Below, piece after piece: positions 5,616 to 44,522 of a stretch of DNA of 64,000 bases. The DNA is taken from assembly GCA_022385755.1 (NCBI GenBank), contig MU278352.1, forward strand, positions 1,240,001-1,304,000. Reading direction: 5' to 3'. Positions within the stretch are counted from its first letter, which is position 1; each line of letters begins with the position of its first letter. A program made the position numbers and the translations under genes. A model generated the notes under the pieces. That model made no database searches. It had not been told where the DNA came from and was given only the letters and a program-made list of their open reading frames with translations. This stretch comes from Trametopsis cervina. Lineage: Eukaryota; Basidiomycota; Agaricomycetes; Polyporales; Irpicaceae.

Positions 5616-8600
5616 TCAAAGCGGACCAACCCCCAACGGATCCGACGACATCACCGGCGGCTGGACCTGGGGCTGGGGCGGGGTCGCAGGCCGACTGGAC
5701 TCATTCGATATAGCAGTGAACGAGCCAAACGACGACGGCAGCGTCGTCACCGACGAGCTCTGCGACGCATACGCCAACGGGTCCTGCGCAGTCCGCGGCG
5801 CGGGTATCGGCGTCGGCAGCGCAACCGTCGGGTCCAGCGGTAACCTCGACGTCACGGTTGTCTCATTCCGCTCTTGCTTGAACGCGCTGTACGACGGCTC
5901 AGGCTCGATCGCGCTACCCGCCCCGGGTGTATCCCACGGGTTGTCGAGGAACATGCTCGGGAGCCCAGGGCGCGCCTTCGTCGTGTTCCACGGGTTCATA
6001 ATCGTACTGCTCCCCGCGAACGTCCCCGCCCCTGGCGTAGTAGCAGCGAGCGGCGACACCGGACGGTCCGCAGCACTCCACGCATTGATCTCTTCCCGAC
6101 TCTTCAATTCTCCACCCCCACCCTCAGTAGTACCATCGGCGCCGACGGAGAGTTTACTGAGGTCCTTCGCCATCCCTCCGTACGCGTCTTGGACTGCGGA
6201 CAACGCGGATGCAGCCCCCGAGGAAAAGCGGCCCCACATCGAGCGTACGCCGCCGGAGGAGAGAAGGTCGGAGGTGCTGCCGCGCGGGGAGGGAGTGGGC
6301 GGGGCTTGTGGGGGGCGCGGGCTGCGTCTGCTCGTGAGAGTGAGGGGGGAGGGCGAGCGGGGGGTGGGGCTGTGGGTCTGTATTCGACTTGGACCTCCTC
6401 CGCCTCCTCCGCTTTCTTCTTGTTGTTCGCGCAGGCTTGAGGTGCGTGAGCGGGGGGAGGTGATGATAGCGGGGAGCGTGGATGCAGACGGGGTGGGCGA
6501 GCCCGACCTTCCGAGGCTCGATATCGAGTTCACGGCCGACTCGAGTGCGCTGGCTATGACGGGCGTAGAGGCGAGCGGGAGCTCCATCTGCGGTGGTGTG
6601 GGCATCGACACGGACACGAGCGCGGGATCTTCGTCCCCGTTCTCTATCGGCGCGACGAACTCGGGGCTCTGCGCCGTCTGCCTTACGACGAACCGTCCAT
6701 TCATTTCCTCGTCCGTGCGTCCATACAACTGATACCAGAACCGCACATCCTTAGGGTTGACCATCAACACGCCCATATCCGCGCCCGTCTCCCTCCTCAG
6801 CGGGTCGTCCAACGCGGGATCATACTCCGCATTCCTATTAAGCTCGACCTCCGCCGGGGCATTGAAGAAATCCCACACGCTGACGGTGTTAGCGACCGGC
6901 GTGAGCCCGTTCTCGCCGATCCTGCGCTCGCGCTCGCTGTTGAAGAGGAAGTTCCCGAATTGGCACGAATAGAGGTGGTAGTGCAGTGTGCGGAGGAACC
7001 GTTCGTTGAACTCGAACCGCGTCGGGTGTTGGCGCTGTACCTGCCGTACGGACTCGAGGAACTGGTGGAACACAGGCGAGGTCTCCTGAATATGTTTCTG
7101 CGACACGAACTTGTTCTGCACCGACGCGAAGAACGCCTGTGCAGCATCCGCCCCACTCCCCGCACCGCCCGCATCGCCCGTCGGCGAGACGAAGAACTTC
7201 TCCGAGGACAAATGCCCACAGCGATCAAGGAACTTATGTCCAAACGCCGCCCAGTCCTTCTCGACAAGCACCATAAAACCCCTCATCGTGCGATAATACG
7301 GGTCCAGACACAGCTGGGACAGCGCAGAGAGCTGCGCGGTGCGGTCCCAGCCGTCCGAACAGTGTATAAGCACATGCGACGAGTTCACATGCACGTTCTT
7401 CACGATCAATAGTGTCCCTTCTAGGATCGCAGACAGGTGTCGCAGCCAGCCTGACCGGCGCAGGGCCTGGCGGTCCAGGATGGGAATGGCGGCGCTCTCG
7501 CCGGGGAGGTCGCCTGTGAGGCTCGCGGCGACGGACTCGGTGTCGCGGAGCGCGTCGACGACACGCGCGAGCGAGTCGCGCATCGTGTGGATGTTGTCGA
7601 TGCCGAGGTACGCCTTGCGCGCGTCCTTGTAATGGTCCATGTTCTCGGTCCCCGCGCCCTTTGCGGTGTTGGCGACTGCGTTTGTGGTGGGGCGCGCGTC
7701 GATTATGATGTTGGTGCTTGTTGCGCCGTAGATGGGCCCCCCGCTTACGGCGCGCGCGGAGGGCGCGTGGTGTGTGTGGAAGATCGCTTCGACGAGCTTT
7801 TCGTCTTGGATTGAGCGGCTTTGGGTGAGGCCGACCATTGGTTGGCTTGAGCGCGTGATTGTGCCCTGGAAAACGAGTGCATCTCACATTAAATCCGTAC
7901 GTTCATAGAAAGTGAAAAAGGGTATACGAACATAGTTGGCCCAATGCAAATACGTCAACACAGGCAACCTGCCTTTACTCCGATACTTAGTCGCATACTG
8001 GAGGGTCGCATCGCTTATCCTCGTCGGCACAACAAGTTTCGCGGGGTACGTGCCACAGAACTGCAAAGCAGAGCAGCTGTTCGTTATAAATTCGACTTCC
8101 ACGCTCTCACTCACGCGGGGAGGAGGGAGAAGGGGAGAAGGGGGGTACGCACAGAGTAGTCCTTGTTGATGTCGGTGAAGCGCCACGCCTTCGTGCGCGT
8201 CCCGACGCCCATGCGCCCGAACTCTTCGCGCGGGCTGTAGATCGTCCAGCCGGATGTGGAGGGGAAGGGAGGGTTCGGGACGTAGTGGAATGCGTAGAGT
8301 TGGGTTACGGAAGCTACAACGGAGATATAAATGACATGAGTGGCTGCAGAGGATAGAATGAGAGGAAAGAAGGGGCGCACTGGCGACAGTAAGATCCCGC
8401 ACGCTATCGAACACGTCCTGCGCGTCTTTCTCCGCAACGAACGAGAGCGTGAACGTCTCGAAGGAGCGCGTGCGGCATGTTATGGGGCTTTGGCCCTTGA
8501 GCGTGTGCGGCATGCGGGTCACGAGCGACATCAGCGGGTATGGGACCTATGCGTCGACGTTAACATCATCAATGGGTGTAAGAGGAGAAGGAAGTGGAGA

Positions 8601-8857: not shown

Positions 8858-9816
8858 AGTTGGCCTGGACTGTGGCTGGGAGGGATTGTGGTGTATGGTG
8901 TACGGTGCACTCGAGTGGGAGATCAAGAGATCATTGGGCGCCTAATCCACTCCTGCTGCTGCACGTACGTACGTAGCCGTAGACAGACAGCCACGGTGCC
9001 CTGCGGTGCCGCGCTGCGTCTGACTTTGTACATCACATTTCCGGCACTGCATTCATTCAAGCTTCATTCAATCTTCATAAGTGTCTACACACTTACGAGG
9101 AAAACGGCGGAAGGTGTAGGAGTGTAAGTGTATGAGACAGACGTATGTGGAAAAGGAAGTGATTCGTGTTCCGAATTACAATGCCCCGCGATCGCCATGT
9201 ATGCTACGTATACGGTGCATGTCCAGACTCGAAGATCCATCACGGGCAGAGCACTGCTCTAGCACCGTACCCGTGATGAATCATCCACCAACGCCGTGCT
9301 CGGCGGACAATCCAGCAGTGCCCTCCGTGAGCCCCTCTACAGTACAGTACTGTACTAGTCAATTACAGCAGGGCAGGGAAAATAAGCTGAGCCTCCCGCA
9401 TGCCAGTCACCTAGTTGTGTACCTCATAGAAGCGTCGAGCGTAGTGGCATTGATATCGCTGCGGCTCGTCAGCTCACCGAGTCATCCACCCGTCTATCTC
9501 GCCTCTCGCAAGAAGCACAGATCGGCGTCGCGCACTAGTTGTGAATGGAGCGGGACCAGATAGTGAGGGACGGGTCGGAGAAGGTTATCTTGAGGTACGA
9601 GGGGGAGTGCTCCTCCGACGCGGTTCGGAGGATTGAGATAGGGAGACACAGCGCGGGAGGAGTGGCCGATATGCGCGAGGAGTGTTCGAGCGTGCAGAAA
9701 TGCAGAGTGTGCAATGTCGGAGAGCTCGGTGTGCGTGCGCAGAATGGCGCGGTGGTTGCGGTGCAAGAAGGAGAGGAAGAGAGATGTATTGCAGCACTGG
9801 TATTGCAAGGAAGACG
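8858..9816. other. Upstream region of the phosphatase gene and left flank of the retrotransposon
   Basis: This holds the promoter of the minus-strand phosphatase gene and, from about 9545 on, a possible interrupted host gene on the plus strand (listed separately). Apart from a 16 bp perfect palindrome at 9341-9356, nothing else is supported. Confidence 0.4.
9341..9356. repeat. 16 bp perfect palindrome
   Basis: AGTACAGTACTGTACT reads the same on both strands. It lies about 480 bp upstream of the phosphatase start. It could be a binding site for a dimeric regulator or a chance AGTAC repeat; there is no second copy in the region to argue for function. Confidence 0.4.
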
Positions 9817-9830
9817 AAGAGTGCTGTGGC
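9545..9830 (+). pseudogene. Candidate host gene interrupted by the retrotransposon (left part)
   Basis: The reading frame that ends at the left target-site copy (…ARKTKSAV) continues in the right flank as ANQDGDDIIAASAIA and stays open to a stop at 20540-20542 if the inserted element and one duplicate are removed. A TTGCAG acceptor at about 9793 could begin this exon. The continuation has plausible coding composition and ends in a hydrophobic stretch (WASIVLPPLAFLGTVLY). I do not recognise the protein and cannot define its first exon, so this is only a candidate disrupted gene. Confidence 0.3.
9817..9830 (+). repeat. Left target-site duplication of the LINE
   Basis: AAGAGTGCTGTGGC occurs here and again at 20405-20418 immediately after the poly(A) tail. 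The first two A residues are ambiguous with the tail, so the duplication is 12-14 bp. It marks the 5' end of the inserted element. Confidence 0.9.
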
Positions 9831-10984
9831 GGGGCAAATCGAAGCACTTTGGAGGGAACCACCACCATCGAAAAAGCTCAAAAGGCTTTGGAGGGCTCCA
9901 GAGCCCTCCTAGACGTCAGGACCACCATCCTGACGCCTATGGTAGCACACAGTGCTTGAATCCTGGTCCAAAAGACCTGAGTTTCATCCCTCCTCGACGT
10001 CGTAGACGTCGTCGAACCCTCTCACAAGGAGGAACGACAGTGCCCCTGAGCCGAAACCCCCTTTCGCCGCACGACATACCACCCAACACAACGAACCAAC
10101 ATGTCACGCAACAAAAGCAGACACACAGCACCAACGATAAAACTGCCCAACGACAAAACCGACAACCTCCATGAAATACAATCAAAACATGAACCAAACA
10201 CCCCACCCCTCCCCACCCAGACACCCAGCAGCCCAACGAACATACGAGACACGGTTGACGATACCGTCCCAAACCACTGCGATGACACTCACGATACCTT
10301 GCGGAGATACACACCATGCATACCGACGCCGAACCGTAGAATAAAACGAACTCCTAGTCTACAAAATTCTATAAAAACGCATAGACCCTCCCTAAAAAAT
10401 ACATGACACACGTCTGTAAAGATAATGCGACGACTAAAAAATACAGCAAGCCTGAGCCACAAAACACCTAAGTACAGCCATACACACCGCGGGCGAAAGA
10501 ATGCCTCAGCTCAACGCACACCCCACCCCAGGACAGACTCTGGCAGTCGGCGGAGTCATCAAGCCCGGAAACGACTCCCCAAACCCCATCGGCGCCAGTT
10601 GATTAAGCGAGTAAATTAATCAGCAAGAATCGTACGACGAATAAATCACGGTCGGCAAACCAGAAGCCGAACTGCAATCCCAAACCACATCCGTAAACCG
10701 AACCGTTCGAATCCAACGATCCAAACCATACGCTACCATGCTAGACCACAACCCCTACAGAAGGGCGGGAGCAGGCCTCCTCCACACCATATACCAACCA
10801 CAGAAGAACGTTTCGCAAAAGATAATGCATACTGAACATAGCACCGAGTAACGTAAGAGAGACCCCCACATAAACGCCCCATTACTTCATCAATATCTGA
10901 ACATTACGCAAACCACGCTAAGCGAGATAACGAAACATATAAAGCAACCTGTCTATCCACCTGGGAAAGACACAGAATCCCAAG
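9831..10984 (+). promoter_or_regulatory. LINE 5' leader, presumed internal promoter
   Basis: This is A/C-rich non-coding sequence between the 5' boundary and the first element gene. Full-length LINE transcripts must begin at the left boundary, so an internal promoter is expected here. A 101-codon open frame at 10101-10406 has a composition that simply follows the base bias, and I do not count it as a gene. Confidence 0.5.
10937..10944 (+). promoter_or_regulatory. TATA-like box for the extra LINE gene
   Basis: ATATAAAG stands 48 bp upstream of the ATG at 10985. That is the right spacing for a short 5' UTR of an independent mRNA made from inside the element. Confidence 0.5.
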
Positions 10985-11824
10985 ATGCCCCAAGCCCTCT
11001 TCCCTGACCTTCACGCCTGGAAGGAGCAATATCCTCTATTCTCCCCGACCACGGAGACACCCTACACGCCTCCCCCGGGAGCAACCGCAGGTAGGAAAAC
11101 CCCCACCTCACCCAACATCCCACATCTAACGTCTAACCTTGGGAATAGCATCCCTACCACCAAACTTGTTCCTGGAACCAGACGACACCCGATTCCATGA
11201 AACTTTGCTGGGAACACGCCAAAATGCACAAGGGACTGAGGAAGACCCCATGACGGGTGTAAACATGAACGAACGTGAGCAAAATGAACAATAAGCGAGA
11301 GATTTAACCCCCCGCACTAACGAAACCCATCAGCTGAATACATGAACCAATCCCAGAGCAACGCACCGATGGCGAGAGTTCACAACCACAATCTGCACCA
11401 ATATTCGCGTGAGAACCTCCCAACCGAACCGGGGCTCCAAACAGCGGTCACGTCACGGGTCCAAACAATCACTGTACGGAATTTCGAGTCACACCCCTTC
11501 CGCACGCGCCTTCTCTCTCTCTATATCGCCTTTCGACCGGACGAGAAAATCCGCACTCAAGCTCGCATCCGAGTCCGCAATGACGCCGACTACGGCATTG
11601 AAGCGCCTTTCCGCCTCAAACACATCGCGGGCTTCCTGAAAGACCATGTCGGCTTCTGGGCAATTCAAGACGATGAGAGGAGCGTTGCCGCATTCCTCCT
11701 CTTCGTCAACAAAGAATGGGTTACTCTCACAAGGGAGGAACAGCTCGCCGCAGAGCTCCTCGGGATGGACCGTTACGACCTATACTCCATGTATGACCCG
11801 AACTTGGACCAGGAGGAGGACTGA
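10985..11824 (+). CDS. Extra LINE-encoded protein of unknown function, three exons
   Basis: Not recognised. Exons 10985-11090, 11149-11274 and 11334-11824 give 240 residues. Both introns are textbook: 58 nt (GTAGG…GGGAATAG, with two CTAAC branch-like sites) and 59 nt (GTGAGC…CCCATCAG, with CACTAAC). Without them the frame stops. The N-terminal 80 residues are Pro/acidic and probably disordered. The C-terminal half looks folded, with RLLSLYIAFRPDEKIR, FRLKHIAGFLKDHVGFWAI and FLLFVNKEWVTLTREE, and it ends in an acidic tail (DPNLDQEED). No nuclease, protease or zinc motif is visible. It lies upstream of ORF1 and has its own TATA-like box. It could be an accessory or regulatory protein, or a captured host gene. 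LINEs normally have one or two ORFs, so a third, spliced gene is odd. Confidence 0.65.
11091..11148 (+). other. Spliceosomal intron 1 of the extra LINE gene
   Basis: Donor GTAGGA, CTAAC twice near the 3' end, acceptor GGGAATAG. Removal restores one frame across both exons. Confidence 0.65.
11275..11333 (+). other. Spliceosomal intron 2 of the extra LINE gene
   Basis: Donor GTGAGC, branch-like CACTAAC about 15 nt before the acceptor CATCAG. It joins GAAC to CTGAATACATG in frame. It contains in-frame stops, so unspliced RNA would give a truncated product. Confidence 0.7.
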
Positions 11825-12590
11825 TTAGTTGAACCAGCAAGGAAGAGCAGCGGAGATGGCGTCAGTAACGAGGGTGACGTAAAATCCTTTTAGCTAGAGA
11901 ACAAACTATCGCACGAAATATATAGCTTGAATATGCCTCTGAATCCACACAGTATCACTACCCTACTCGCCTGCCAACGAATAAGACCCGAAACCAACCA
12001 CCAAGAAATATGAGTACATACGCCTGCCACTGGTGAAGAAGAGGCGGGAGACACTGCAAAGCTAGGTACGACAACCTGACACTGCAGACACATGATCCGT
12101 AATATACACGCGACCCAAACAGCCTTAACGACGAGAAACGCGGGCATGACGGACTCCCTCCACCGCCACACCGTCGAGAACACAGGCCTCGACGAAACTA
12201 CCACGACATCCTGCCATAACACCCGCGACACCCAGGAAAACATGCCGGCAAATCCTCTCGGCGCACACGCTAGACCAAAACCACTATACATTCTCCACAC
12301 ACTCCCGAGCGCCACCAAGACTGACGAAAATATAACAGACAGCTGAAACAACAATGACCACGACGCGAGATCGTCAAGATTACCGAGCCCAACCTCGACG
12401 GACGAAAACTATGCAGCCAACCACGACTCACACTTTTTGGCCCGAAATCCGCAAAAAAAACACTGGGAAAAGACACAAGTCAAAACAAAATCCCGCCCAT
12501 GACCATTATAAAAAGGGAGCGAAAGTGAGTGGAAACGACATTGCCCTACTCCAGCGATAATAGCGATTAACACCCAACCCAACTCTGACG
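11825..12590 (+). promoter_or_regulatory. Spacer between the extra gene and ORF1
   Basis: There are 0.77 kb between two coding parts of the retrotransposon. No convincing ORF is present (an 84-codon frame at 12092-12346 follows base bias only). The TATAAAAAG at 12507 suggests the last part is an internal promoter for ORF1. Confidence 0.45.
12507..12515 (+). promoter_or_regulatory. TATA box upstream of LINE ORF1
   Basis: TATAAAAAG, 84 bp before the ORF1 ATG at 12591, is a strong match to a TATA box. It would produce a subgenomic ORF1 transcript. Confidence 0.55.
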
Positions 12591-14667
12591 ATGTCTTCTC
12601 CCTCGCCCTCCACAGTCTGGAACTCCCCCAAGAAAGGAGTCCCACTCGAACTCGACGAGGATGAATTTCCCCTGCTCGGTGAGTCTAACAACTGCCCAAC
12701 ACCCCTCCTGAAAAAACGACTAAAATAAACCCAAACCGACATAGCCCCGCCATGGTCCACGCCCGTCATGAGAAATGGCAAAAGTATTCCGAACACCCCA
12801 AACAACACGCCGGCAAAAGGAGACTTTGAAATGGACACCACCCCTTCGGTTGCCCCAAGCGAAATCAGCGAGAGCCTGCCGACCGTTGCGGGAATCCTTG
12901 CGAGCTACAACGCCTTTGAAGCCCTCGCACCGGTGCGGGAATACGACCGCATGCCAGGAGTAGCTGCCAGCATGCATGCCTACCCCAAGGAGAAGCCGGT
13001 AAGCACTCCAAACCCCCCCCCTGCTCACAAAGAACATTCCCCTCACCGACTTTCTCCAGATTACCGCTAACGAAGCTCAGCAGGACACTCGAGACCGTGA
13101 CACGGCACCAGGAGCCAGCTCTCATAGGGGAAGATCCACTCAACCTAAAAAGCGACGGAACGCGGACGGAACGTCGACCTCCCCAACTGGTAGAGAGCCG
13201 CGCCGCCGATCCAGACGATCAGCATCACCTGTGAGGAAACGAAGACAAGACCGAGCCTCCCTCATCCTCAATACAACCGACCCGCTTCCCCCTCCTGCCT
13301 TTTTGCCAGACTCGCCAACTCCCCCAAGGCGTAGACGTCGATCATCCTCGGTGCTTTCCTACGTAGACCCTAACCAACTTCACCCCATAAACCAAAACCT
13401 GACACCGCCAAATGAGGACCACCAGCCCGCACAAGAAGCAGAGCTCAGTATAGAGAACATCTTCCCAGAAGAAGTCCCACGACCTCCAACACCAGACCAT
13501 GGACAACCTCCGCAAGCTCTGCCGGCCGCTCCGCCCCAACAGGACGAGATACCACCACCGGCTGCTCCAGAACCAATGAATGTAGACGAGCCTATCCCTC
13601 CGCAGGATGAAATCGGCACAAAACCACACATTCCCCAACGGGTGCAAAACGAGAAGATATCATACGTTTACCCCTTAGACACTTGGGAAGAACCGCGCGG
13701 AAAAGACCCCCTTTTCTGGTACGATAACCTGGTCACCGCACAGCATGTGGCATGGACGGCATACCCCTACCCTGCAGTCCTAGCCAGAATAGCGTACGAA
13801 GGATGTCCCACCCCGGAAAACGAAGGCGCGAACATCTCGCTAATTGAACACATCATCGAAGGAGTACTGGTCAATGCGCCGAACCTTATGGTAACTGCAC
13901 CGGCTCCCCTACACGAACCCCGCAACCCGCGCTCTCCACCCTTCTCCTACCTGGTAATGGGAATAGACGAGGTAGAACAAGCCATCCTAGAGGACCTGAA
14001 GTGCATCTCGACCGATCGCGGAACAATTTTCATCACACCGAAGAACCCCCCGATCGACACATATATCACCAGCCTTAAAGGGACCCGACGACCGAAATTA
14101 CCCATCCTACGCAACCACATCAATGCAGTACTCGACAGAGCCGGCCTAGACGGACGAATTAGAGCCCTCGTGTCAGGACACCCGACGCTGAGTATCATGC
14201 CACCGGATACAGCTTGCCAGCGGATCCGAGACTCCCTCCGCATACAACTCATAACTGTCCCCACAACGAACACCGACTTTATGGACATCGTCCATATCTT
14301 CATGGATCCTCCGACCACCGACCCAGTCCAGTGGAGAAACTTCCGCGACGCAATCACTAGGGCGAACTTCAGGGATCCGATGCTCGGAATGGGAATAGCA
14401 ACCTTCGACAAGTGGAAATGCATATGCTGCAACAGTATGCTACACCCTACGGGTCTATGCCCAATCCTACGAGAACCGGGTTGGATCATTCCCCCTAACC
14501 ACCCGGCCGAAGCCGCTCAAGCCGCCGCAGATGAGCCCCCCCAGGAAGACATCCTACCAACAGCTTTCACCACTGTTCCGGTAGCGACAGCAGCACGAGG
14601 AAGAGGAACGGGCCGCGGACGTGGAGGAGACCGCGGCAGAGGACGAGGAAGGGGACGTGGTTGGTAA
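12591..14667 (+). CDS. LINE ORF1 (gag-like nucleic-acid-binding protein), three exons
   Basis: The predicted RNA-binding structural protein of the retrotransposon RNP. Exons 12591-12678, 12745-12998 and 13060-14667 give 649 residues. Intron 1 is 66 nt (GTGAGT…GACATAG) and intron 2 is 61 nt (GTAAGC…TTTCTCCAG); reading through either one gives a stop. The N-terminal 270 residues are Pro-rich and basic/acidic with nuclear-signal-like Arg runs (PRRRRRSSS). The middle region, residues about 270-550, looks folded (PLDTWEEPRGKDPLFWYDN, SLIEHIIEGVLVNAPNLMV). A perfect CCHC zinc knuckle C-X2-C-X4-H-X4-C (CICCNSMLHPTGLC) sits near residues 568-581. The last 20 residues are RG repeats that should bind RNA. 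The stop codon overlaps a consensus donor, TGGTAAGT. Confidence 0.8.
12679..12744 (+). other. Spliceosomal intron 1 of LINE ORF1
   Basis: GTGAGT donor, CGACTAAA region as branch candidate, acceptor CGACATAG. An in-frame TAA lies inside, so splicing is needed to join the first 29 codons to the rest. Confidence 0.7.
12999..13059 (+). other. Spliceosomal intron 2 of LINE ORF1
   Basis: GTAAGC donor and TTTCTCCAG acceptor with a pyrimidine-rich end. The unspliced frame ends at DYR followed by a stop just past the acceptor. Confidence 0.7.
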
Positions 14668-14855
14668 GTCTGGAGCAGAGCGAGCCCCGTTGAGCCACAC
14701 GAGCCAATACTACACTGTAACCTCCCTTACGTACTATACCAATAACAACGCCGTATCTAATATATGATCCCCATGAGCGAATCTTACCAAAGGAGAACAT
14801 CGACGGGAAACATACGGACTAGTAAGGCCCACACTTACTAACTGAATTCATTCAG
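14664..14855 (+). other. Possible alternative intron linking ORF1 end to ORF2 leader
   Basis: A GTAAGT donor overlaps the ORF1 stop codon. A strong 3' site (ACTAACTGAATTCATTCAG) ends at 14855. Splicing would replace the stop with a few codons (IGKPYE) before a new stop. That would remove 192 nt of the spacer in front of ORF2 without fusing the frames. Confidence 0.35.
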
Positions 14856-14908
14856 GATAGGAAAGCCTTACGAATAGTCGCGGAGATGGGTACCCCGCTA
14901 AGCAGTAG

Positions 14909-17900
14909 ACTAAGCACCATTTCCCCTGCTCGCGAGCTGAACCCTGCTGCAAACCCCTCACGGTGCCTTACCAGTCGTATAGCCACCGGACATTTGCCTT
15001 TTCAGGTCGACTGCCCCACCCTACAACATACAATACTGAACACAACCCAACGGAAGAAACACTCGGCACGGCTAACTACCTCTCTGAGACCAGAGACGGT
15101 GGGATTCTGCCCGTCGAAACCCACGTCGATGACGGACTCGGAGAGATCGGTGACGGGCACCGTCTACACACACACCCCCTCCCACCCTCCCTCCCTAACC
15201 CGACTAACCCTGTGAACACTCCTATGACCCTTCTTAGAGAATCCTGCCATGAAGCGGAGGACCCTCAGCCGAACAACACACGAAAACAAAAACGACGTAA
15301 GAACAAACGCACGGCCGCACGCCTCAAGATCGCAACATTAAACATGAAAGGAAGAGGCTCCCTCCCACCTGATCAACACAACGACAAATGGTCTAAAATA
15401 AACCAAATAATGAGAGATAAAAAGATTGCTGTCCTTGCGGTCCAAGAAACACACCTCCAACAAATACATGTCGACACACTCCACTCCCTTTTTGGAAAAA
15501 GAATACAGATCCTCCACTCGGCACCGGAGGAACGAGCATCGACGTCTCGGGGAATCGCGTTCGTCCTCAACAAGGAAAGACTGGATACCTCAAAAATATC
15601 CTTAACAGAAATAATCCCTGGACGAGCGGCTCTCCTCTCGTGCAAATGGCACAACGAAGTTCCCCTACACATCCTTAACATCTACGCCCCTAACGACAGA
15701 GCAGACAACGAACATTTCTGGAATGAAATCAGCAACAAGTGGGACTCCGAACAACTCCCCATACCAACTGCGATGACAGGGGACTTTAATATTGTGGAAG
15801 AGGCAAAAGATCGACTCCCAGAGCGAGCGGACCACTCCGGAGCGGTGCACGCTCTCCAGGACCTCTGTATAAAGTTTAGACTAATAGACACATGGCGGGA
15901 AACATACCCCACCGAACGAGAATACACTTACTTACAAGATCATGGCCTGAGCATGTCACGACTTGACCGAATATATCTCAATAATAAAACCGGTAAAAAT
16001 GCCACAGACTGGATAGTCGAACCGGCAGATGCACTATCGACCGACCATCTACTGCTATCAGTATCTATCGCTGACGACAAACTCCCTTTTGTAGGGGGAG
16101 GACGATGGTCTATCCCGAAAGTTGTCCTGGCTGACCATGAGTTCCTAGATCGTATAAGTAACCAAGGACGAACATTTATAGAACTAACCAACCTACGCAA
16201 GTCTCTACGAGAACCTGACAACATCCAAGAGCGATATAAGGCCTTCAAGGACGACATCATGGTAACGGCACGCAGGCTTGCCAAGATCAACATACCTAAA
16301 ATTGTAAAACGAATCAGTAAGCTGAAAGAAGAACGAAAACAGATACTAAACTCCCCCAAGCCGAGGGACGAACTGTACGTGGCCACCCAAGCATCGGCCC
16401 TTATGGACCGAATACGAACCCTAGAAGCTAGACGTTTCAACTCCACTAGAAAATCGGTGGCAACCAAAGACTGGACTCACGGAGAACAGATCACCAAATA
16501 CTGGGTACGAACCAGCAAACCGAAAAACCCACGAGACATTATAATGGAGCTAAGAGACCCCGAATCCGGATACCCACCGTCCGACCAAAGGCACGACCCG
16601 CTCTTCCCTCCACAATACCTCAAACGAACTGACCAAATGGCAGCGACGGCAATGGCATACCACCGTGACATCCAACTCCATGACCTTAGCAACTCGACCG
16701 TGGAGCAACGCTCACACGAAATAAAACAAGTCACCAGCACATTAGAATCCACGCTACCCAAAAAAGGCCGCAGGGAACTTAAGAAACTACTCACCTGGGA
16801 CGACCTAGAACAGGCCATTAAACTCTGCTCACCAGGGAAAGCTCCCGGGATCGATGGGATCCCATACGAACTCTGGAAAGAGCTCCACCGCAGATACATC
16901 TCCTGTGACTCCGACTCCAATCCCCACCTCGACATCCTCCTCCTCTTCAAAACTCTCTTCAATGATATCGAGGAAAATGGAGTGATGATAAACTCAAACT
17001 TTGCGGAAGGATGGATCGCGCCTATATATAAAAAGAAGGATAAGAAAGAGATCTCAAATTATCGACCTATCACCTTGCTAAACACAGACTATAAGTTATT
17101 CACTAAAGCTCTCTCCATGAAACTAGCAAAGTGGATACACACTGTAGTTCACCCGGCGCAAGCGGGATTCATCCCCAATAGATCGATCTTCGACCAGACG
17201 AACTTGGCACGCCTAATGACGGACTATGCGGAAGCTGTAGAAGACAACGGCATGATAGTCGCTCTAGACCAAGAAAAAGCTTACGATAAAGTGGCCCATG
17301 ACTACCTATGGGAGGTTCTTCAGCAATTGAAAATACCCCGACAATTCATCAAAACCATACGATCCCTATACGAATCCGCGCAGTCAGCGATTATGATCAA
17401 TGGAGTCTTAAGCAAGAAATTCCACGTCACGAGAGGGGTCCGTCAAGGAGACCCCCTCTCGTGCTTACTCTTTGACCTCGCAATAGAACCCCTAGCATGC
17501 ATGATCAGAGCATCCGCCCTTCGAGGATACGAAATTCCAGGCCTATCAGAAAGAATAATCACCACGCTATTCGCGGACGATACTACGGTGTACTTATCCC
17601 ACAAAGACAAATACTCCGACCTTCAAAAAGTACTAGCCCTCTGGTGCAAAGCTTCGCGAGCAAAATTCAACCTGGAAAAGACAGTGGTTATTCCAATTGG
17701 GACGAAAGACTACAGAAAAAAGGTGGTAGAACGCACTGCCACAACCGACTCTCCAGAACCACTTCCACCGACCGTGACAATAGCACCAGACCACTCACCA
17801 ACACGGATCCTAGGAGCATGGATAGGAAATGAAACGGACCCAACGACGCCTTGGCAACCAGTCCTTCGCTCACTGAAGACCCGACTCCATGAATGGGAAC

Positions 17901-20212
17901 AAACGAATCCTACACAATTCGGGAGAAGATTAATAACCAACATGGAAGTCGGAGGAAGAACTCAATACCTATCGAAAGTCCAAGGAATTCCGAAATCGAT
18001 CCAAAATGAACTCACCTCCATAATACGTAAATTCATGTGGCCCAACCAAACGACCCCTCCAATAAACCTGAGCACCCTCCAACTCCCAATCAAAGACGGC
18101 GGACTAGCACTGATCGATGTTAAAGCCCGCAGCAAAGCCATCATACTATCCTGGCTCATCCCCTTCCTAAATCTGACGGAGTCTAGACCGACCTGGGCAT
18201 ATGTCGCCGACGCCATACTAGCCCTACACGCGAGGAAATCAGGACCACAGTACGACCGAAAAATGAAAATACAATACTTCCTCCAAACCTGGACCGTCAA
18301 CGCAAGCGCAAAATCAAACCTCCCCTCCTTCCTTAAAGACCTATTAAACCTAGCAAAAGAATACAAAGTCAGTTTCAACTCCATCAAACTGAACGCTGAA
18401 GCAAAGAGACGGATGCCTCTGTGGCTACACCTAGGATTCAACAGCCCCAACAACACGACCCACCGGTCAAAAGCCGAAAAATGCCTCCGAAATAACCACC
18501 ATATTAGAACCGTTGACCAACTCATGACCTTCATTGAGTATGGCGAACTCACCATCGACGAGTCCATTAAGCACTACCCCAAGCGCACCTGCTGCATCGC
18601 CTGCGAGAAAATACGCACCATCCACAACTGTAGTTCGCCGCTGCAATGTTACCTCGAAGCTAAACGGCTCAAACAGAAACTGCCCGAACAATGGATACCA
18701 ACCGAAGAAGGACCAAGCGACGGCCTCTCCTTCACACACCGAAGGAAACGGCAGACCCCCACCATAGTCGCAGCTAAACGCATTATTACCTTCAACCCAT
18801 CAGTGACAACGAGGGACGACTTATCAAAGACCTTCCGCATCTTCACCACACGAGAAGGGAAAACCACGGACACCGCGAATCGACCAGCCACCGCTCCACA
18901 ACCTAGAGCCACGGTGGTAGCGTACACTGATGGATCATGCACCAATAATGGATCTCAGAATGCAAGAGCAGGAGCAGGGGTCTGGCTAGGAGACACCCAC
19001 CCGGGAAACGCGGCGATCCGAGTCCCGGGTCGAGAACAAACCAACCAACTGGGGGAATTAGCGGCCATTCTCCATGTCCTGCAAACAACACCGGCAGTAA
19101 CACCAGTACACATCATAACGGATTCGAAGTATTGCATAGAAGGTATTGTGAACCACTCACCGACCTGGGAAGCGAAAGGATGGATAGGGGTGGCCAACAA
19201 GGAATGGTTCCAAGCCATTATCTCTTGGGCAAGAGCACGAGCGGCACTCACTACCTTTGAATGGGTCAAAGGACACTCCGGAGTCCCAGGAAACGAAGAG
19301 GCAGACCGCTTGGCGGCGGAAGGGGCTCGAAAACCCCCAGTCGGAAACATTCTCCTAAACCCAAAGGAACGCTTCCTCCTCAACGGGGCCCAAATTTCCA
19401 CCCTGGATCAAAAAACGATTTATCGCGGGATAAAAGACCTAGAACAAATCAACACAAGACGAGCGACGGCGCACCATCTGCAACTCACAAAAGCCGCGGT
19501 CCTCTTTAACACTGGCCTCATCCCAACCTCGGCCAGGATATGGATGACCATACGCCACAAAAACAACCGCAGACTCATACAAACCTTCCTGTGGAGGCTT
19601 CTACACAACGCCTTCAGATGCGGGGAATGGTGGAAGAACATCACAGGCTTCGAAGAGCGGAAACTCTGTGGAATCTGCCAAGAAGTTGAGTCCATAGACC
19701 ACATCCTGACAAAGTGTAAATCACCTGCGAGACAAATAGTATGGAACCTGGCTCGTGCCGCCCTCCAGAAAAAAGCCAATCACGACCCCTGGATCTCCCT
19801 GGGAACCATTATGGGAGCGAACCTAATTGAAGCACCACCTGCCCAAGGGAAACAACGACCAGGGACATCGCGCCTCCAAACCATCCTCGTCACCGAATCC
19901 GCCTACTTGATCTGGAAGATCAGATGCGAAAGAGTTATCGACCGCGGACCAGACCCCGCCAATTGGCACTCCGAGGAGGAAACTAAACGGCTGTGGCACA
20001 AAACAATCAACCGGCGACTGCAGGCGGATATCGCACTCACTCACCCGAGAGTCCCGACGACCAAGCGCCTGAAAGCAAAGGAGGTCCTCAACACTTGGTC
20101 GGGAATCATTAAGGACGAAGACCTCCTACCCGACAACTGGATTACGGCCGCAGGGGTTTTAGTGGGTGATCTCAACCCCCTCACTGAACGATTCATACTA
20201 GACCACGGGTGA
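14909..20212 (+). CDS. LINE ORF2 polyprotein: endonuclease, reverse transcriptase, RNase H
   Basis: The frame is open from 14909. The first ATG is at 15224, giving 1,662 residues; an upstream non-ATG start at 14963 would give 1,749. Numbering from 14963, the apurinic-type endonuclease spans about 121-365 (IATLNMKG, VQETHL, NIYAPND, GDFNI, LDRIYLN, STDHLLLSV). The reverse transcriptase spans about 620-920 (APGIDGIPYELW, NYRPITLLN, AGFIPNRS, GVRQGDPLSCLLF, catalytic FADD near 870). RNase H I spans about 1319-1455 with its D-E-D-D set (YTDGSC, QLGELAAI, IITDSKY, EEADRLAAEG). A C-terminal CCHC finger (CGICQEVESIDHILTKC) is near 1569. These activities nick target DNA, copy the element RNA and remove RNA from hybrids. 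There are no stops or frameshifts, so the protein is probably functional. How translation starts is unclear because no TATA-driven mRNA or good ATG lies close upstream. Confidence 0.95.
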   Translation, partial: TKHHFPCSRAEPCCKPLTVPYQSYSHRTFAFSGRLPHPTTYNTEHNPTEETLGTANYLSETRDGGILPVETHVDDGLGEIGDGHRLHTHPLPPSLPNPTNPVNTPMTLLRESCHEAEDPQPNNTRKQKRRKNKRTAARLKIATLNMKGRGSLPPDQHNDKWSKINQIMRDKKIAVLAVQETHLQQIHVDTLHSLFGKRIQILHSAPEERASTSRGIAFVLNKERLDTSKISLTEIIPGRAALLSCKWHNEVPLHILNIYAPNDRADNEHFWNEISNKWDSEQLPIPTAMTGDFNIVEEAKDRLPERADHSGAVHALQDLCIKFRLIDTWRETYPTEREYTYLQDHGLSMSRLDRIYLNNKTGKNATDWIVEPADALSTDHLLLSVSIADDKLPFVGGGRWSIPKVVLADHEFLDRISNQGRTFIELTNLRKSLREPDNIQERYKAFKDDIMVTARRLAKINIPKIVKRISKLKEERKQILNSPKPRDELYVATQASALMDRIRTLEARRFNSTRKSVATKDWTHGEQITKYWVRTSKPKNPRDIIMELRDPESGYPPSDQRHDPLFPPQYLKRTDQMAATAMAYHRDIQLHDLSNSTVEQRSHEIKQVTSTLESTLPKKGRRELKKLLTWDDLEQAIKLCSPGKAPGIDGIPYELWKELHRRYISCDSDSNPHLDILLLFKTLFNDIEENGVMINSNFAEGWIAPIYKKKDKKEISNYRPITLLNTDYKLFTKALSMKLAKWIHTVVHPAQAGFIPNRSIFDQTNLARLMTDYAEAVEDNGMIVALDQEKAYDKVAHDYLWEVLQQLKIPRQFIKTIRSLYESAQSAIMINGVLSKKFHVTRGVRQGDPLSCLLFDLAIEPLACMIRASALRGYEIPGLSERIITTLFADDTTVYLSHKDKYSDLQKVLALWCKASRAKFNLEKTVVIPIGTKDYRKKVVERTATTDSPEPLPPTVTIAPDHSPTRILGAWIGNETDPTTPWQPVLRSLKTRLHEWEQTNPTQFGRRLITNMEVGGRTQYLSKVQGIPKSIQNELTSIIRKFMWPNQTTPPINLSTLQLPIKDGGLALIDVKARSKAIILSWLIPFLNLTESRPTWAYVADAILALHARKSGPQYDRKMKIQYFLQTWTVNASAKSNLPSFLKDLLNLAKEYKVSFNSIKLNAEAKRRMPLWLHLGFNSPNNTTHRSKAEKCLRNNHHIRTVDQLMTFIEYGELTIDESIKHYPKRTCCIACEKIRTIHNCSSPLQCYLEAKRLKQKLPEQWIPTEEGPSDGLSFTHRRKRQTPTIVAAKRIITFNPSVTTRDDLSKTFRIFTTREGKTTDTANRPATAPQPRATVVAYTDGSCTNNGSQNARAGAGVWLGDTHPGNAAIRVPGREQTNQLGELAAILHVLQTTPAVTPVHIITDSKYCIEGIVNHSPTWEAKGWIGVANKEWFQAIISWARARAALTTFEWVKGHSGVPGNEEADRLAAEGARKPPVGNILLNPKERFLLNGAQISTLDQKTIYRGIKDLEQINTRRATAHHLQLTKAAVLFNTGLIPTSARIWMTIRHKNNRRLIQTFLWRLLHNAFRCGEWWKNITGFEERKLCGICQEVESIDHILTKCKSPARQIVWNLARAALQKKANHDPWISLGTIMGANLIEAPPAQGKQRPGTSRLQTILVTESAYLIWKIRCERVIDRGPDPANWHSEEETKRLWHKTINRRLQADIALTHPRVPTTKRLKAKEVLNTWSGIIKDEDLLPDNWITAAGVLVGDLNPLTERFILDHG

Positions 20213-20380
20213 GGATTACCTCGGGTGAGACAGCCCCACACTGCCAGATGAGACTGGCGTGCTAATGAGCATTTCCCCTGAGGAGGGCACGTAAATATTT
20301 ATTAGAAGGTGCAACCCCTTCGTATAAGCTGAGGCAACGGAGATCGTTATGCGAACTGCCAATGCCTCACAGAGCTCCAT
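20213..20380 (+). other. LINE 3' UTR
   Basis: There are 168 nt between the ORF2 stop and the poly(A) tail. The sequence around 20300-20340 (GGTGCAACCCCTTCGTATAAGCTGAGG) could fold and serve as the site read by the reverse transcriptase, but I cannot show a structure. Confidence 0.5.
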
Positions 20381-20406
20381 AAAAAAAAAAAAAAAAAAAA
20401 AAAAAA
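20381..20406 (+). repeat. Poly(A) tail of the LINE
   Basis: Twenty-six consecutive A residues directly precede the right target-site copy. An unbroken tail of this length suggests recent insertion. Confidence 0.95.
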
Positions 20407-20418
20407 GAGTGCTGTGGC
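20405..20418 (+). repeat. Right target-site duplication of the LINE
   Basis: AAGAGTGCTGTGGC matches 9817-9830. The first AA may belong to the poly(A) tail. Confidence 0.9.
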
Positions 20419-21532
20419 CAATCAGGATGGGGATGACATTATTGCGGCGAGTGCGATTGCGGCAACTTGGGCATCGATCGTTCTCCCGCCACTTGCGTTC
20501 CTTGGCACAGTACTGTACGAGCTACGCACCGCAGATAGGTAGCTCGCTACAGGATATTGCATTAGCAGAGCTACCTCCGTCAGGTGGGATGCATAGTGTG
20601 AAATAGCTGCGCCAGATAGTACCTGTATGAACGACGAGGCTGGGACGTTCACACCGCAAATTTGTCACGGGTGAGCTGAATACGCGTACTGTTGAGGGAA
20701 TGCGAAGGCTTCTTGCCGTGGTTTACGGGACGCAACAAAATCAGGCATTCTGATGATATTGGGTGCGTGTGAGGGAGAGAACGTGACGGGCTGATGCTGG
20801 TTATGAATGCGAAGCCAGCCTGACCTGACAAGGGTCTGCCTCTGCGCCGACGACGGCACGACGAGGCCGACATGCACCCGTGAGTTGAGCTGCAGAGATA
20901 AAAGAAAAAGCAGGAAACGGTGTCTGATGGCGAAGTGCGCGACGAGAGAGGCAAGTACATGTAGTCTGTGGGATGCGGTACAGTATTATTATTGGAGATC
21001 AGAGGTGTTTCCATCTGTGTGCTGATATTCTGTGCTGCTGTCATGCGTTGTGCATCAGACTGCAGACAGTGAGATGCCCTCGCCGTGGACCGAGCACGCT
21101 GGCGTTCCAAGCTAGAGAGATCCAAGCGTGCTGTCCATCTCAGCCTGTCACAGCTGTTGTTGCTACGAAGACCGGTGAGCACGGCCTTTCCCACCCACGC
21201 ATTCCCTTACCGCAGACGCAGAGCACGGCACAGACGTGACCCCGCAGATGGAGGCGATGTGAAGTGGGCGAGAGGGTGGAGGTGCCTGTTGGGCGCCTCG
21301 CCTGTGCGCGGGACTTTTCTTTCGCAGATAACATTTCGCCAGTTCGCCGGGAACGGGGAGCGCTCCCACCTCTTCTCGCTGCGAACCCAGACAAGACAGA
21401 AGCGTATTGCTGCAACTATAAGTATCCATCAACCGACCATGCTCCCATCTCCCAAATCTTCGTCCCTCCGTCCGCTCAACCCGCTCCCCTCCCGGGCACC
21501 ACCACCACCACCACCGCGCGAAGACAGACACC
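20419..21532. other. Right flank of the LINE and promoter region of the permease gene
   Basis: The first 124 bp (to the stop at 20542) continue the interrupted host frame. The rest is the upstream region of the Dal5-type permease gene. A 181-codon frame on the minus strand (20649-21194) shows no protein-like pattern. No other gene is seen. Confidence 0.4.
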
Positions 21533-39665: not shown

Positions 39666-40443
39666 GCTTGTAGACTCCCTTTCCTATTCGAGGCTCCTCC
39701 CTCGCCATTGGCATGCCGCCCGCGCCCATGTCAATTCACACTATCGCATGCTGTCGCTTTCTTCGCTCTCACCGCACCGGAAGTTCATCCTTCCGCCTAT
39801 TTATTCTGCATTATACATGAATGATATATCCTAGAACTTTGTCCTATCGCCCACCCCATCCTTCATATCCGCCCAACCCCTGCCAGGTCACATGCAGACT
39901 CACACGTTCCGCCACCTTACCCCAACGCTACGCTTCGCTGATGCCCATGATTCCGTGCTTGTAACAGCATCATTCTTCCATGACTGTTGAGGCTTCCCGT
40001 GGATCTTTCTGATCAGCCAGCCCGCTCCTTTTACGAATACTTTAGGGATCCTTAGGGTTACTCGCTGGCATTACTGCCTATATTGTTGGAGCCACCGCGC
40101 TCAACCGCGGATTCGTGCTTCCACTCACCAATACAATTGGTTTCTTACGAGTCTATGTGGTGTGACATACTACGAAAGTGCAATGGTGATCTGACGCACT
40201 AGGCTTTATAGGGTATATGACAGCCAACTCACTAACTGACAGGGGTATGTTCAGGGGCTACGACTCCTCGCTCGGCTGAGCGTCTCAGTACTTCACCCAG
40301 TTGACCCTGACCATTCACACTTGGAGGTAAGTGGCCAATATTCCTTCAAGCGACGATACTGATGAGGCTGAGTATTTACAGTACACGCGCGAGACAGCGA
40401 AACTTAACATCTGCTCTTCCTGCTCCACAATCCTCATACCACA
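39666..40443. other. Intergenic region before the F-box array
   Basis: The last 200 bp belong to the repeat unit of the first F-box gene and include a likely 5' UTR intron (40327-40381). No gene is seen in the rest. Confidence 0.4.
40327..40381 (+). other. Likely 5' UTR intron of F-box copy 1
   Basis: Donor GTAAGT and acceptor GTATTTACAG. The same acceptor, with diverged donors, is found before copies 2 and 4. It is 62 nt before the ATG. Confidence 0.45.
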
Positions 40444-41361
40444 ATGTACGACCTTCCCACCGAGCTGTGGTTGAAGATCATTCGTTCTGCATGTCTGGAT
40501 GACGGGTCAACAGCTCGAGCACTGAGTGCGGTCTCGCACCGAATCCGAGTAATCTCCCATGAATTCCGATACCAATCCATTGCCGTCACTGGAACAAGCC
40601 AGGTGCAGCATCTCGTCGACGCCCTTCAGCATCCTGACCACCTAGGATGCCGGGTTGAAGCACTCTTCGTCGATACAGATGACATCAGCTTAATCACGCA
40701 GCTATGCAGCATCGTGGCTCCGACCGTGGAGATATTGACTATCGTGGCCGCCGTTCGACGCCCTGACCCTTCTACCACAAGCCCAATCGACCTCTATTTC
40801 CCCCGGCTACGCGAATTGACTGTGCGCGGCTTCATTATGCTTCCTCAGAGTAACACCTTCGCCCCCGCCCTCGAGCGACTCGAAATACTGTACAGTATCG
40901 CGTCCACCAGCAACTTCTTCGACTTTTCCGCTGTGAATCACCCCAATCTCCTATTCACCATTCTCCACTCCGACCTGAATTGTACGGACGTCGAGGCGTT
41001 CTCGTCAATGTTACGGCTCCTCAGTGCTGTGGGTTTGCGCGTGTTCGACAGGCAGAACAAATTATCTTTGTCACCTCAGCGTAGCGTCGCCCTTGAGTTT
41101 GGATCGAGGGCGGCACAAACCCAGCAGGTGGCAGAAAACCGAAAAGTACACCAGTGGATGCTACAACAGAGATTTAAACGACGCTCTCATTTCGTGCTTC
41201 TGCCAGAGATGGCTAGTGGCAAAGGAATCGCTCGTGAGCGATGGTTGGATAGGGTCCAGGGGAAAGATGGGATATGGGCACTTATCGAAGCGAAGATTCA
41301 GGATAATATTCGCCAGGCGAGGGATGAATCCGAAAATGCGAACACAAATGCGAACACATGA
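40444..41361 (+). CDS. F-box-like protein, tandem copy 1
   Basis: Intronless gene of 305 residues. The N terminus MYDLPTELWLKIIRSACLDDGSTARALSAV is a typical F-box-like motif (LPxEL…I), known to bind Skp1 in SCF ubiquitin ligases. The following 250 residues alternate Leu-rich and polar segments (QHLVDALQHPDHLGCRVEALFVD, FPRLRELTVRGF, LERLEI), suggestive of degenerate leucine-rich repeats that would choose a substrate. The C terminus carries a conserved block (FVLLPE, ARERWLDRVQGKDGIWALIEAKI) shared with the next three genes. The role as an SCF receptor is inferred from the F-box only. This is the first of four head-to-tail paralogues. Confidence 0.8.
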   Translation: MYDLPTELWLKIIRSACLDDGSTARALSAVSHRIRVISHEFRYQSIAVTGTSQVQHLVDALQHPDHLGCRVEALFVDTDDISLITQLCSIVAPTVEILTIVAAVRRPDPSTTSPIDLYFPRLRELTVRGFIMLPQSNTFAPALERLEILYSIASTSNFFDFSAVNHPNLLFTILHSDLNCTDVEAFSSMLRLLSAVGLRVFDRQNKLSLSPQRSVALEFGSRAAQTQQVAENRKVHQWMLQQRFKRRSHFVLLPEMASGKGIARERWLDRVQGKDGIWALIEAKIQDNIRQARDESENANTNANT

Positions 41362-41596
41362 TCTTGTATAGCGAAGGGTAGATACATAGCATAGGTACGA
41401 CATGGACAGAAATGTAGTAAATGGGCTTGGCGGGTGGAATACAATGCAGAGAATAACTAGTCAGTTGCGATGCGCACTTGAGTAGAAGCCGGTCTGCGCG
41501 ACCTCGATTGCCATCGTAAACCAAAGGTAGCGAGCTAGTGGTGGAAAGTGGGTGGCACGAACGGCTATTTCACACCGGGCCCACGAGAGCGAACCG

Positions 41597-41708
41597 GCCT
41601 GAGCGTCTTGCAACGAGTTCGCTCTAACCATCCAACCATCCGAACTTGAACGCAAGTCGTCTGATATTCCTGCTAGTGATAATACTGATCTGAAGTGGAT
41701 ATTTACAG
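41597..41708 (+). repeat. Shared promoter/5' UTR block of the array, with GC-AG type intron before copy 2
   Basis: Contains gagcgtcttgcaacgag (41601-41617), which recurs at 42994-43010 and, with one change, near 44382. It is followed by an intron-like segment 41652-41708 with GCAAGT as donor and GGATATTTACAG as acceptor. The block shows that the duplications included the promoter. Confidence 0.55.
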
Positions 41709-41750
41709 GTGTAGGCTCGACAATATCTTCCGTAGACCTGCCATATTGCG

Positions 41751-42674
41751 ATGCGCGACCTTCCCACCGAACTGTGGTTGCAGATCCTTTCCTCCGCTTG
41801 TCTGGATGACGGGTCAACAGCTCGAGCGTTGAGTGTGGTCTCTCATCAAATCCGAGCGATCTCCCACCAATTCCGATACCAGTCCATTGCCGTCATTGGG
41901 TCACGCCAGGCACAGCACCTCGTCGATGCTCTTCAGCATCCTGACCACCTGGGATGCCGAGTTGAAGCACTCTTTGTGGAGGCCGACGATAGCAACTTAA
42001 TCGCACAACTATGCAGCATTGTGGCCCCCACCGTGGAGATATTGACTATCGTGGCAACAGCCCCTCCCCCCTCCATCCTCGATTTACCTAACACAAGCCC
42101 ACTCGATTTCGATTGCCCTCGATTACGCGAATTGACTGTGCGCGGCTTCAGTATGCTTCCTCGGAGTAGCACCTTTGCTCCCATCCTCGAGCGCCTTGAA
42201 ATAACGTACAGCATCGCGTGCCTCAATACCCCCTTCTTTGAAAGTTCCGCTTTCAATCACCCGAATCTCCTATATACCCTTCTCCACTACCACTTGAATC
42301 GTCAGGCCATTGGGGCATTCTCGTCGATGTTGCAGATCATCGGTGTTGTGGGTTTGAGCGTGTACAACAGGCAGAACAAATCAGCCTCGTCGCCTCAGCG
42401 CGGTGTCGCCATTGAGTTTGTACCAACAGCGGTACAACCCAAGGATGGCATAGAAACCCGAGAAATGCATCGCGCTCAGTGGATGCTACAAAACCGATTA
42501 AAAAGCAACTCTCACTTCGTGCTTCTGCCGGAGAGGGCTCGTAGCGACGGAATTGCTCACGAGCGATGGCTGGACAGGGTACAGGGGAAACGTGGGGTAT
42601 GGGCATTTATCGAGGCGAAGATCAAAGAGAATATTCGCCAGGCCAACGATGAAGCCGGAAGTTTGAATACATGA
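41751..42674 (+). CDS. F-box-like protein, tandem copy 2
   Basis: Intronless, 307 residues. The N terminus MRDLPTELWLQILSSACLDDGSTARALSVV and the central LRELTVRGFSMLPRSSTFAPILERLEI are nearly the same as copy 1. Differences cluster in the middle, where an extra segment (PPPSILDLPNTSPLDF) occurs, and near QPKDGIETREMHRAQWM. The conserved end (FVLLPERARSDGIAHERWLDRVQGKRGVWAFIEAKI) is intact. It starts 1,307 bp after copy 1. There is no sign of decay. Confidence 0.8.
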   Translation: MRDLPTELWLQILSSACLDDGSTARALSVVSHQIRAISHQFRYQSIAVIGSRQAQHLVDALQHPDHLGCRVEALFVEADDSNLIAQLCSIVAPTVEILTIVATAPPPSILDLPNTSPLDFDCPRLRELTVRGFSMLPRSSTFAPILERLEITYSIACLNTPFFESSAFNHPNLLYTLLHYHLNRQAIGAFSSMLQIIGVVGLSVYNRQNKSASSPQRGVAIEFVPTAVQPKDGIETREMHRAQWMLQNRLKSNSHFVLLPERARSDGIAHERWLDRVQGKRGVWAFIEAKIKENIRQANDEAGSLNT

Positions 42675-43158
42675 TATTGTATGGCGAAGGGCAGATACAC
42701 AGCATAGGTACAAGAAGTGCAGCTCTGTGGACAGAAATGCAGTGAACAGGCTTTGCAGGTAGATTACAACACAGAGAGTACTGTAACCAGTCAGATCCTG
42801 AAAGCTGCGATGCGCACTTTAGAAGCCGGTCTGCGCGACCTCAATCAGTCCTCAATCGCGCAGAGAATGTGTGAACGCGTTTAGTCTGACCATCGTAAGC
42901 CAAAGGTAGCGAGCTGGTAGTGGAAGGTGAGTGGCACAGAGTGAATCGAATGGCTGTTCACTTCACAGCGGATACACAGGCGCGAACTAGCCTGAGCGTC
43001 TTGCAACGAGTTCACTCTGGCCATTCACACCTATAGTAAATACAAGTGTTCAATATCCTTGTCCGTGAACAATAATTGTTTGTAGCTGTTGATAGGTACA
43101 CTCTCCAGACAGTGAGGTTCAATATCTGCTCTTCCTTCCCTATACTTTCCGCGCCACA
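42675..43158. other. Spacer between F-box copies 2 and 3
   Basis: Spacer of the tandem unit with the repeated block at 42994-43010 (gagcgtcttgcaacgag). At the intron position it has ACAAGT (43042) instead of GTAAGT or GCAAGT, and the acceptor region is changed (GTTGATAG at 43095), so the intron has probably been lost or moved. Confidence 0.5.
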
Positions 43159-44067: not shown

Positions 44068-44425
44068 TATATGTATGGAGAAGTACGGATACACGAGTGG
44101 GGGCATGGTACTTGCAGGGTTGTTTACGTAAATAGAGTGAACGGGTTTTGGAAGTAGGGTAGTCAGTCGGATCTTGAAAGCCGCAAGACGTTGAGCAGAA
44201 GCCAGTCTTCGCGAGGTTCGGTGTAATATTGTAAGTGCCTTGTGTCTGAGCCTCGAAAATCTAGAGTAGCGAGCCAGCCGTGGAAGGTGAGTGGTAAAGA
44301 GAGCATAACAAAAACGGCTCCTTGGAACATAGAGCGAACATCTGGGACAAACCAAGGACAAACACGCGTGAAACCGGCCTGGGCGTCTTGCAACGAGATC
44401 ATTCTTTGGTCCCTCACACTCGAAC

Positions 44426-44483
44426 GCAAGTGTCCAATGTTTTTTTGTTCGTGACAAAACTCATTTTGTGTATATATTTACAG
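44426..44483 (+). other. Likely 5' UTR GC-AG intron of F-box copy 4
   Basis: Donor GCAAGT, acceptor TATATTTACAG, 40 nt before the ATG at 44523. Equivalent to the GT-AG intron of copy 1 and the GC-AG intron of copy 2. Confidence 0.4.
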
Positions 44484-44522
44484 GTACAGTCTCGGGACAG
44501 CGAGGCTCTCTATTCTACCACA

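Follow-up and report, generated by a model that had tools for sequence, protein, structure and literature searches.

The RNA of long interspersed nuclear elements (LINEs) is usually regarded as message and genome at once. Penelope-like elements (PLEs) with introns were reportedly described by Arkhipova in 2003. We examined a window of 64,000 nucleotides from Trametopsis cervina (Irpicaceae, Polyporales; contig C5, 1240001-1304000; assembly 29.4 Mb) that holds a full-length LINE with three genes: an accessory gene (EXT), ORF1 and ORF2 (ORF, open reading frame). By its domain order this element is a putative Tad-like fungal LINE. It shares with such elements a CX2CX4HX4C motif in ORF1, the order endonuclease (EN), reverse transcriptase (RT), RNase H in ORF2, an A-tail and a target-site duplication (TSD), and differs in its additional first gene, its predicted spliceosomal introns and a structured RNA before ORF2.

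Like the window element, PLEs retain introns through retrotransposition; they are of the GIY-YIG type and an antisense template is suspected for them (PMC3846280, consulted in part), whereas the window element encodes an endonuclease of the Exo_endo_phos type and was copied from sense poly(A) RNA. Human L1 transcripts can undergo splicing and the spliced RNA can be copied, but splicing inhibits retrotransposition and the resulting spliced integrated retrotransposed elements (SpIREs) are dead ends (PMC5860796, consulted in part). The proteins of the window element, in contrast, would need splicing, and C8, a relative without intron 3, unlike the SpIREs keeps ORF1 open over the junction. In the open-access literature searched, an incomplete set seen mostly as listings, introns kept in LINE ORFs were not found described; PLE introns did appear. 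The word "introns" does not occur in PMC3266345. Our analysis indicates that the window element is probably an intact LINE with introns, in which unspliced RNA is copied, the EXT and ORF1 proteins come from spliced RNAs and ORF2 comes from unspliced RNA.

Four intervals, two in EXT and two in ORF1, began with GT and ended with AG exactly as in a preliminary description of this DNA, and all four had to be removed for the two genes to be read. Splicing out all four gave open frames of 240 aa (EXT) and 649 aa (ORF1); left in place, introns 2 and 3 brought an in-frame stop and introns 1, 2 and 4 shifted the frame. The CTAAC-like branch sites that the same description saw in most of them were clear in introns 1 and 2 and weaker in introns 3 and 4. 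A full-length related LINE, C21, whose ORF1 is 63% identical to that of the window, matched it at 4 of 4 sites, with GT...AG in an identical alignment column and phase. Columns refer to aligned spliced proteins, and codon positions in the window and C21 were 35 and 35 (intron 1), 77 and 79 (intron 2), 29 and 29 (intron 3), and 114 and 113 (intron 4), the offsets being due to alignment gaps. The corresponding stretches of C21 measured 66 and 54 nt in EXT, 62 nt at intron 3 and 51 nt at intron 4, the last with stops inside. In C8, intron 4 (57 nt) lay in the same column and phase as in the window and contained four stops. C8 EXT had a single intron of 53 nt in phase 1, whose homology to the EXT introns of the window was not established because EXT exons 1 and 2 were barely alignable. 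Deposited ORF1 models leave out introns 3 and 4 of C21 (P0001) and intron 4 of C8 (P0002). Being predictions with 3' ends that leave the frame conserved in all three elements, these models are support rather than proof.

Exons of the window and C21 shared 74-77% nucleotide identity, with scores far above those of 20 shuffles each. In six comparisons of intron interiors, by contrast, between 36 and 369 of 500 shuffles scored equally well; the lowest count, for the first EXT intron, was borderline. Nonsynonymous and synonymous divergence (dN/dS, Nei-Gojobori) between the window and C21 was 0.12/1.18, 0.39/1.29 and 0.26/saturated for ORF1 exons 1 to 3, and 0.38/1.09, 0.60/1.46 and 0.35/1.84 for EXT exons 1 to 3. 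The ratio thus stayed under 0.5, and synonymous sites were almost saturated. In comparisons with C8, constraint was still evident in the ORF1 exons and EXT exon 3. With GT...AG and a branch site, a phase conserved in homologues and interiors that appear unconstrained, the four intervals have the marks of spliceosomal introns, and they are almost certainly genuine.

Both the window element and C21 carried a TSD and an A-tail (C21: GAGAAAGACGTCGTG, 15 nt, found by eye from the flanks), which indicates that sense, polyadenylated RNA with introns templated two separate insertions. The homologous introns of the two elements imply that their common ancestor, near synonymous saturation, also had introns. 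The usual template was very likely unspliced sense RNA. The view of the preliminary description, that the introns of this LINE are true and its genomic RNA is not spliced, is supported by the homologous introns, the TSDs and A-tails and the exon constraint. It can be refined in two respects: introns are not always kept, C8 being without intron 3, and ORF2 needs none.

ORF2 required no intron. A single frame of 1750-1917 codons was seen in all eight whole elements (window, C21, C12, C26, C51, C10a, C7 and C10b), a count that leaves out C8 (ORF2 lost), C58 and C28 (broken), and C13 and C4 (ORF2 covered in part). A stretch before ORF2 was conserved in all eight elements compared for it (window, C21, C8, C12, C26, C4, C51 and C13). 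In this leader the alignment predicts a pseudoknot, with a stem of 11 pairs and a 5-nt loop that pairs downstream, and a second hairpin. At two pseudoknot positions A-U replaces G-C and C-G replaces U-A. Over the whole fold, 93.5% of 215 cells were paired and 18 of 27 pairs showed two-sided changes, against a shuffle mean of 7.5; none of 500 shuffles reached either value. Sliding the partners by 1-3 columns reduced pairing to 28-41%. No Rfam family matched 9800-20450 up to an E-value of 1, nor the window at gathering scores. Run on 22 sources, a model of part of the leader retrieved its eight building sequences and one chance-level match.

The start of ORF2 is not marked by an AUG conserved among the elements. 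Six of the eight (window, C21, C12, C51, C13 and C4) had an ORF2 frame that extended across the pseudoknot; in C26 the frame opened only within the pseudoknot, and C8 no longer has ORF2. In-frame ATGs were present downstream in the window (15224) and C13, only inside the stem in C21, only upstream in C51 and on both sides in C12, and were absent from 207 codons in C4. A natural guess is that the leader acts as an entry or reinitiation signal, and we give an even chance to its driving ORF2 translation. Reinitiation has been proposed or shown for SART1 and L1 (PMC5972666, consulted in part). The intergenic internal ribosome entry site (IRES) of dicistroviruses likewise places a pseudoknotted RNA before a second ORF without a conserved AUG, in the part of that literature consulted; the window leader, a candidate signal, differs in having one pseudoknot and no Rfam match. 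We also considered whether a further intron might run from the end of ORF1 (TGGTAAGT at the stop, with a donor-like site at 14666) to the TTTTCAG close to 15005 and so fuse ORF1 to ORF2, and rejected it because C21 and C8 have no donor and TTTTCAG lies inside the conserved RNA region.

Candidate internal promoters preceded both intron-bearing genes. Five of seven elements (window, C8, C12, C13 and C26) carried TATAAA or TATATA 79-98 nt upstream of the ORF1 ATG. Before EXT, TATAAA lay at -47 in the window and at -141 in C8, C21 had CATAAA at -45 and C13 had none; a block, GCGAGATAACGA, just upstream of this site was common to the window, C21 and C8. TATAAA occurred three times in the first 6000 bases of the window element stretch, two of these being the promoter candidates. 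We lean slightly towards separate spliced mRNAs from internal promoters.

In the mechanism that we propose, a full-length, polyadenylated, unspliced sense RNA would be reverse transcribed at the target, so that introns are inherited. Spliced RNAs would encode the EXT and ORF1 proteins; these would most likely be short mRNAs begun at the TATA boxes before each gene. Intronless ORF2 would be translated from the unspliced full-length (or an ORF2-containing) RNA, aided by the pseudoknotted RNA, and its protein would bind its own message (cis-preference), so that unspliced RNA is chosen as template. Our first choice for what prevents intron loss is selection for expression, preferred because introns raise mRNA levels in basidiomycetes: in Cryptococcus neoformans, intron removal lowers the mRNA of most tested genes (PMC3744415, consulted in part).

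Real introns might also be neutral passengers, if full-length RNA is spliced inefficiently, unspliced molecules merely happen to be copied, and intron gain and loss are random. Intron content is indeed variable among the relatives in the present alignments, as this explanation would have it. An ORF1 search of the genome found the window, C21, C8, C13, C51, C12, C4 and C26, and three distant matches on C7 and C10. C8 coding sequence continues without intron 3 across ...EFPLLA-APWSTP, and 26 of 32 bases of its genomic DNA match the spliced junction of the window. C26 and C4 ORF1 are open from an MSVTSN start and intronless, C4 with one TAG. C12 and C13 require a frame change near codon 82/83 and probably share an ORF1 intron different from those of the window. 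The best-scoring GT...AG candidates there were in phase 0 in both and 134 and 116 nt long; in C12, length limits of 120 and 200 nt gave different candidates. The absence of intron 3 from C8 would be either a loss through a spliced template or a gain in the line of the window and C21. The trees do not decide: that of the C-terminal part of ORF1 grouped the window with C8 (91/90, not starred), that of EXT and ORF1 grouped the window with C21 (78.1/80), and the approximately unbiased (AU) test gave p = 0.80 for the window with C21, 0.24 for the window with C8 and 0.03 for C21 with C8. Under neutrality a single spliced template means irreversible loss, yet the introns of the window and C21 persist to near synonymous saturation, and ORF2 needs none in any whole element. 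We regard neutral introns as rather unlikely.

Several observations weigh against an intact LINE with introns and separate messages. Intron 3 missing from C8 would also fit an occasional spliced template. EXT exons 1 and 2 were barely constrained or alignable in comparisons with C8 (window-C8 dN 1.25/dS 1.03 and dN 1.45/dS 2.34). Shorter open frames of ORF2 were seen in C58 (1301 codons), C28 (1256), C13 (1382) and C4 (1653). Upstream of ORF1, the sole such motif of C21 is TATAAT at -47, and C4 lacks one. The fold came from RNAalifold, and the pseudoknot by eye, on the same eight sequences as were counted, which favours the fold; as a single sequence the leader folded no better than shuffles (z -0.23). 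The placement of all four introns upstream of ORF2 (P ~0.013 if positions were uniform) is by itself weak evidence. The remaining points would also be expected if the introns were false, that is, if the element were decayed and GT...AG pairs had been picked to skip frameshifts and stops. Branch sites are weak in introns 3 and 4, and the intron-like stretches of C21 EXT are multiples of three, free of stops and readable straight through, as the deposited accessory model P0003 reads them; their intron status rests on position, GT...AG and, in the second stretch, CTAAT, and they may be retained or spliced. Splicing itself is deduced from sequence. A relative 63% identical would not be expected to share the column and phase of false introns, nor would a third element share those of intron 4; interiors could not be aligned, dN/dS between the window and C21 was low, and intron 3 is absent from C8 exactly. 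We consider false introns very improbable.

An antisense template that retains introns, a model published for PLEs (PMC3846280, consulted in part), is extremely unlikely here given the A-tail at the sense 3' end and the TSDs in the window and C21, and the Exo_endo_phos-type endonuclease. Spread mainly as DNA, by segmental duplication or introgression with introns seldom exposed to an RNA stage, would fit the lack of a near-identical LINE copy among the matches listed (long matches 66-71% identical), but both testable intron-bearing copies carry a TSD and an A-tail, and there is scarcely any chance that it is correct. The insertion of C8 could not be typed because its 3' part is lost near the ORF2 start.

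A LINE that needs splicing for its proteins and yet copies unspliced RNA must separate message from genome, so that template choice and cis-preference become testable with a natural splice mark. Whether a relative has an intron or not would show which RNA served as template, and such differences give an example of a mobile gene that gains or loses introns; the covarying leader may reveal how the second ORF of a LINE is started. It is possible, and we suggest it only tentatively, that these elements form a LINE lineage in which, like in retroviruses, genome RNA is split from mRNA: unspliced full-length RNA would be both template and ORF2 message through a pseudoknotted IRES without a fixed AUG, EXT and ORF1 would be made only from spliced short mRNAs, splicing would tell messages from genomes, and introns would have been gained or lost while the lineage stayed mobile.

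The window element is a LINE by its RT with an endonuclease domain, 3' A-tail and TSD. ORF2 matched RVT_1 (3.8e-36) and RNase_H (6.2e-28) in Pfam; Exo_endo_phos (5.4e-4) reached 20.2 bits, under the curated 24.5, and the zf-RVT-like end was likewise under the cut-off. GIY-YIG was not among the ORF2 Pfam matches (Exo_endo_phos, RVT_1, RNase_H and zf-RVT). The CX2CX4HX4C motif of ORF1, presumably a zinc knuckle, and the RG-rich tail were also found in relatives. EXT exon 3 and ORF1 exon 3 had no match in a Pfam search, and structure predictions for P0003 (accessory protein) and P0001 (ORF1), built from 2 and 3 sequences, had mean predicted local distance difference test (pLDDT) scores of 36.1 and 36.4, too low to be of use. 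The 5' end was 81% identical to that of C21 over 150 nt.

Coordinates of the features of the LINE, in positions of the window
Feature	Position	Strand	Details
TSD, 5' copy, 13 nt AGAGTGCTGTGGC	9818..9830	+	identical to 20406-20418; by eye from flanks
Full-length three-gene LINE, EN-RT-RNase H type	9831..20406	+	10.6 kb; TSD, 26-A tail, domains
Conserved 5' end around GGAACCACCACCATCGAAAAAG	9851..9880	+	similar block near 5' end of C21, C8, C26, C51, C12 and C4
TATAAA, candidate internal promoter of EXT	10938..10943	+	47 nt before ATG
EXT exon 1	10985..11090	+	spliced reading; alignment to relatives
Intron 1, 58 nt, phase 1, donor GTAGGA	11091..11148	+	GT...AG; matching GT...AG stretch in C21, same column and phase
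EXT exon 2	11149..11274	+	spliced reading; alignment to relatives
Intron 2, 59 nt, phase 1, donor GTGAGC	11275..11333	+	in-frame stop, CACTAAC branch site; C21 counterpart with CTAAT
EXT exon 3, conserved C-terminal domain	11334..11824	+	58% identical to P0003; dN/dS ~0.2 against C21
TATAAA, candidate internal promoter of ORF1	12507..12512	+	84 nt before ATG
ORF1 exon 1	12591..12678	+	spliced reading; alignment to relatives
Intron 3, 66 nt, phase 1, donor GTGAGT	12679..12744	+	in-frame TAA; counterpart in C21, precisely absent from C8
ORF1 exon 2	12745..12998	+	alignment to relatives
Intron 4, 61 nt, phase 0, donor GTAAGC	12999..13059	+	same column and phase in C21 and C8
ORF1 exon 3: conserved domain, CX2CX4HX4C motif, RG-rich tail	13060..14667	+	motif by eye
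ORF2 open frame, EN-RT-RNase H-zf-RVT, 1767 codons, intronless	14909..20212	+	first in-frame ATG 15224
Predicted RNA pseudoknot	14961..15013	+	stem 14961-14971/14977-14988, loop 14972-14976 pairs with 15009-15013; two-sided changes at 11 of 16 pairs, 8 elements
Second covarying hairpin	15080..15145	+	15080-15091 with 15134-15145; two-sided changes at 7 of 11 pairs
26-A tail	20381..20406	+	sequence
TSD, 3' copy	20406..20418	+	first A doubles as final A of tail

The 3' end of the LINE (20213-20380) was 81% identical to C21 over 183 nt, with weaker matches in C12, C28, C26 and C51; its conservation suggests recognition by the RT. Protein searches found relatives in T. cervina only: two of ORF1, for which scoring covered the 7999 candidates with the most words in common, one of EXT among 372 candidates and two of the ORF1 core among 1271, none of which shows absence elsewhere. 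At least 31 RT matches were found in the genome. The copies C8 (L044 ~7257-7496) and C58 (L026 ~6040) break near the ORF2 start and adjoin a common foreign frame, PVGSEYIRSNLPAQDCKHPRSTSY, which would suit a chimeric or nested origin. Elsewhere in the window, 40408-45413 holds four similar consecutive open frames that look F-box-like by eye, with MxD(L/F)PTELWLxI close to the start.

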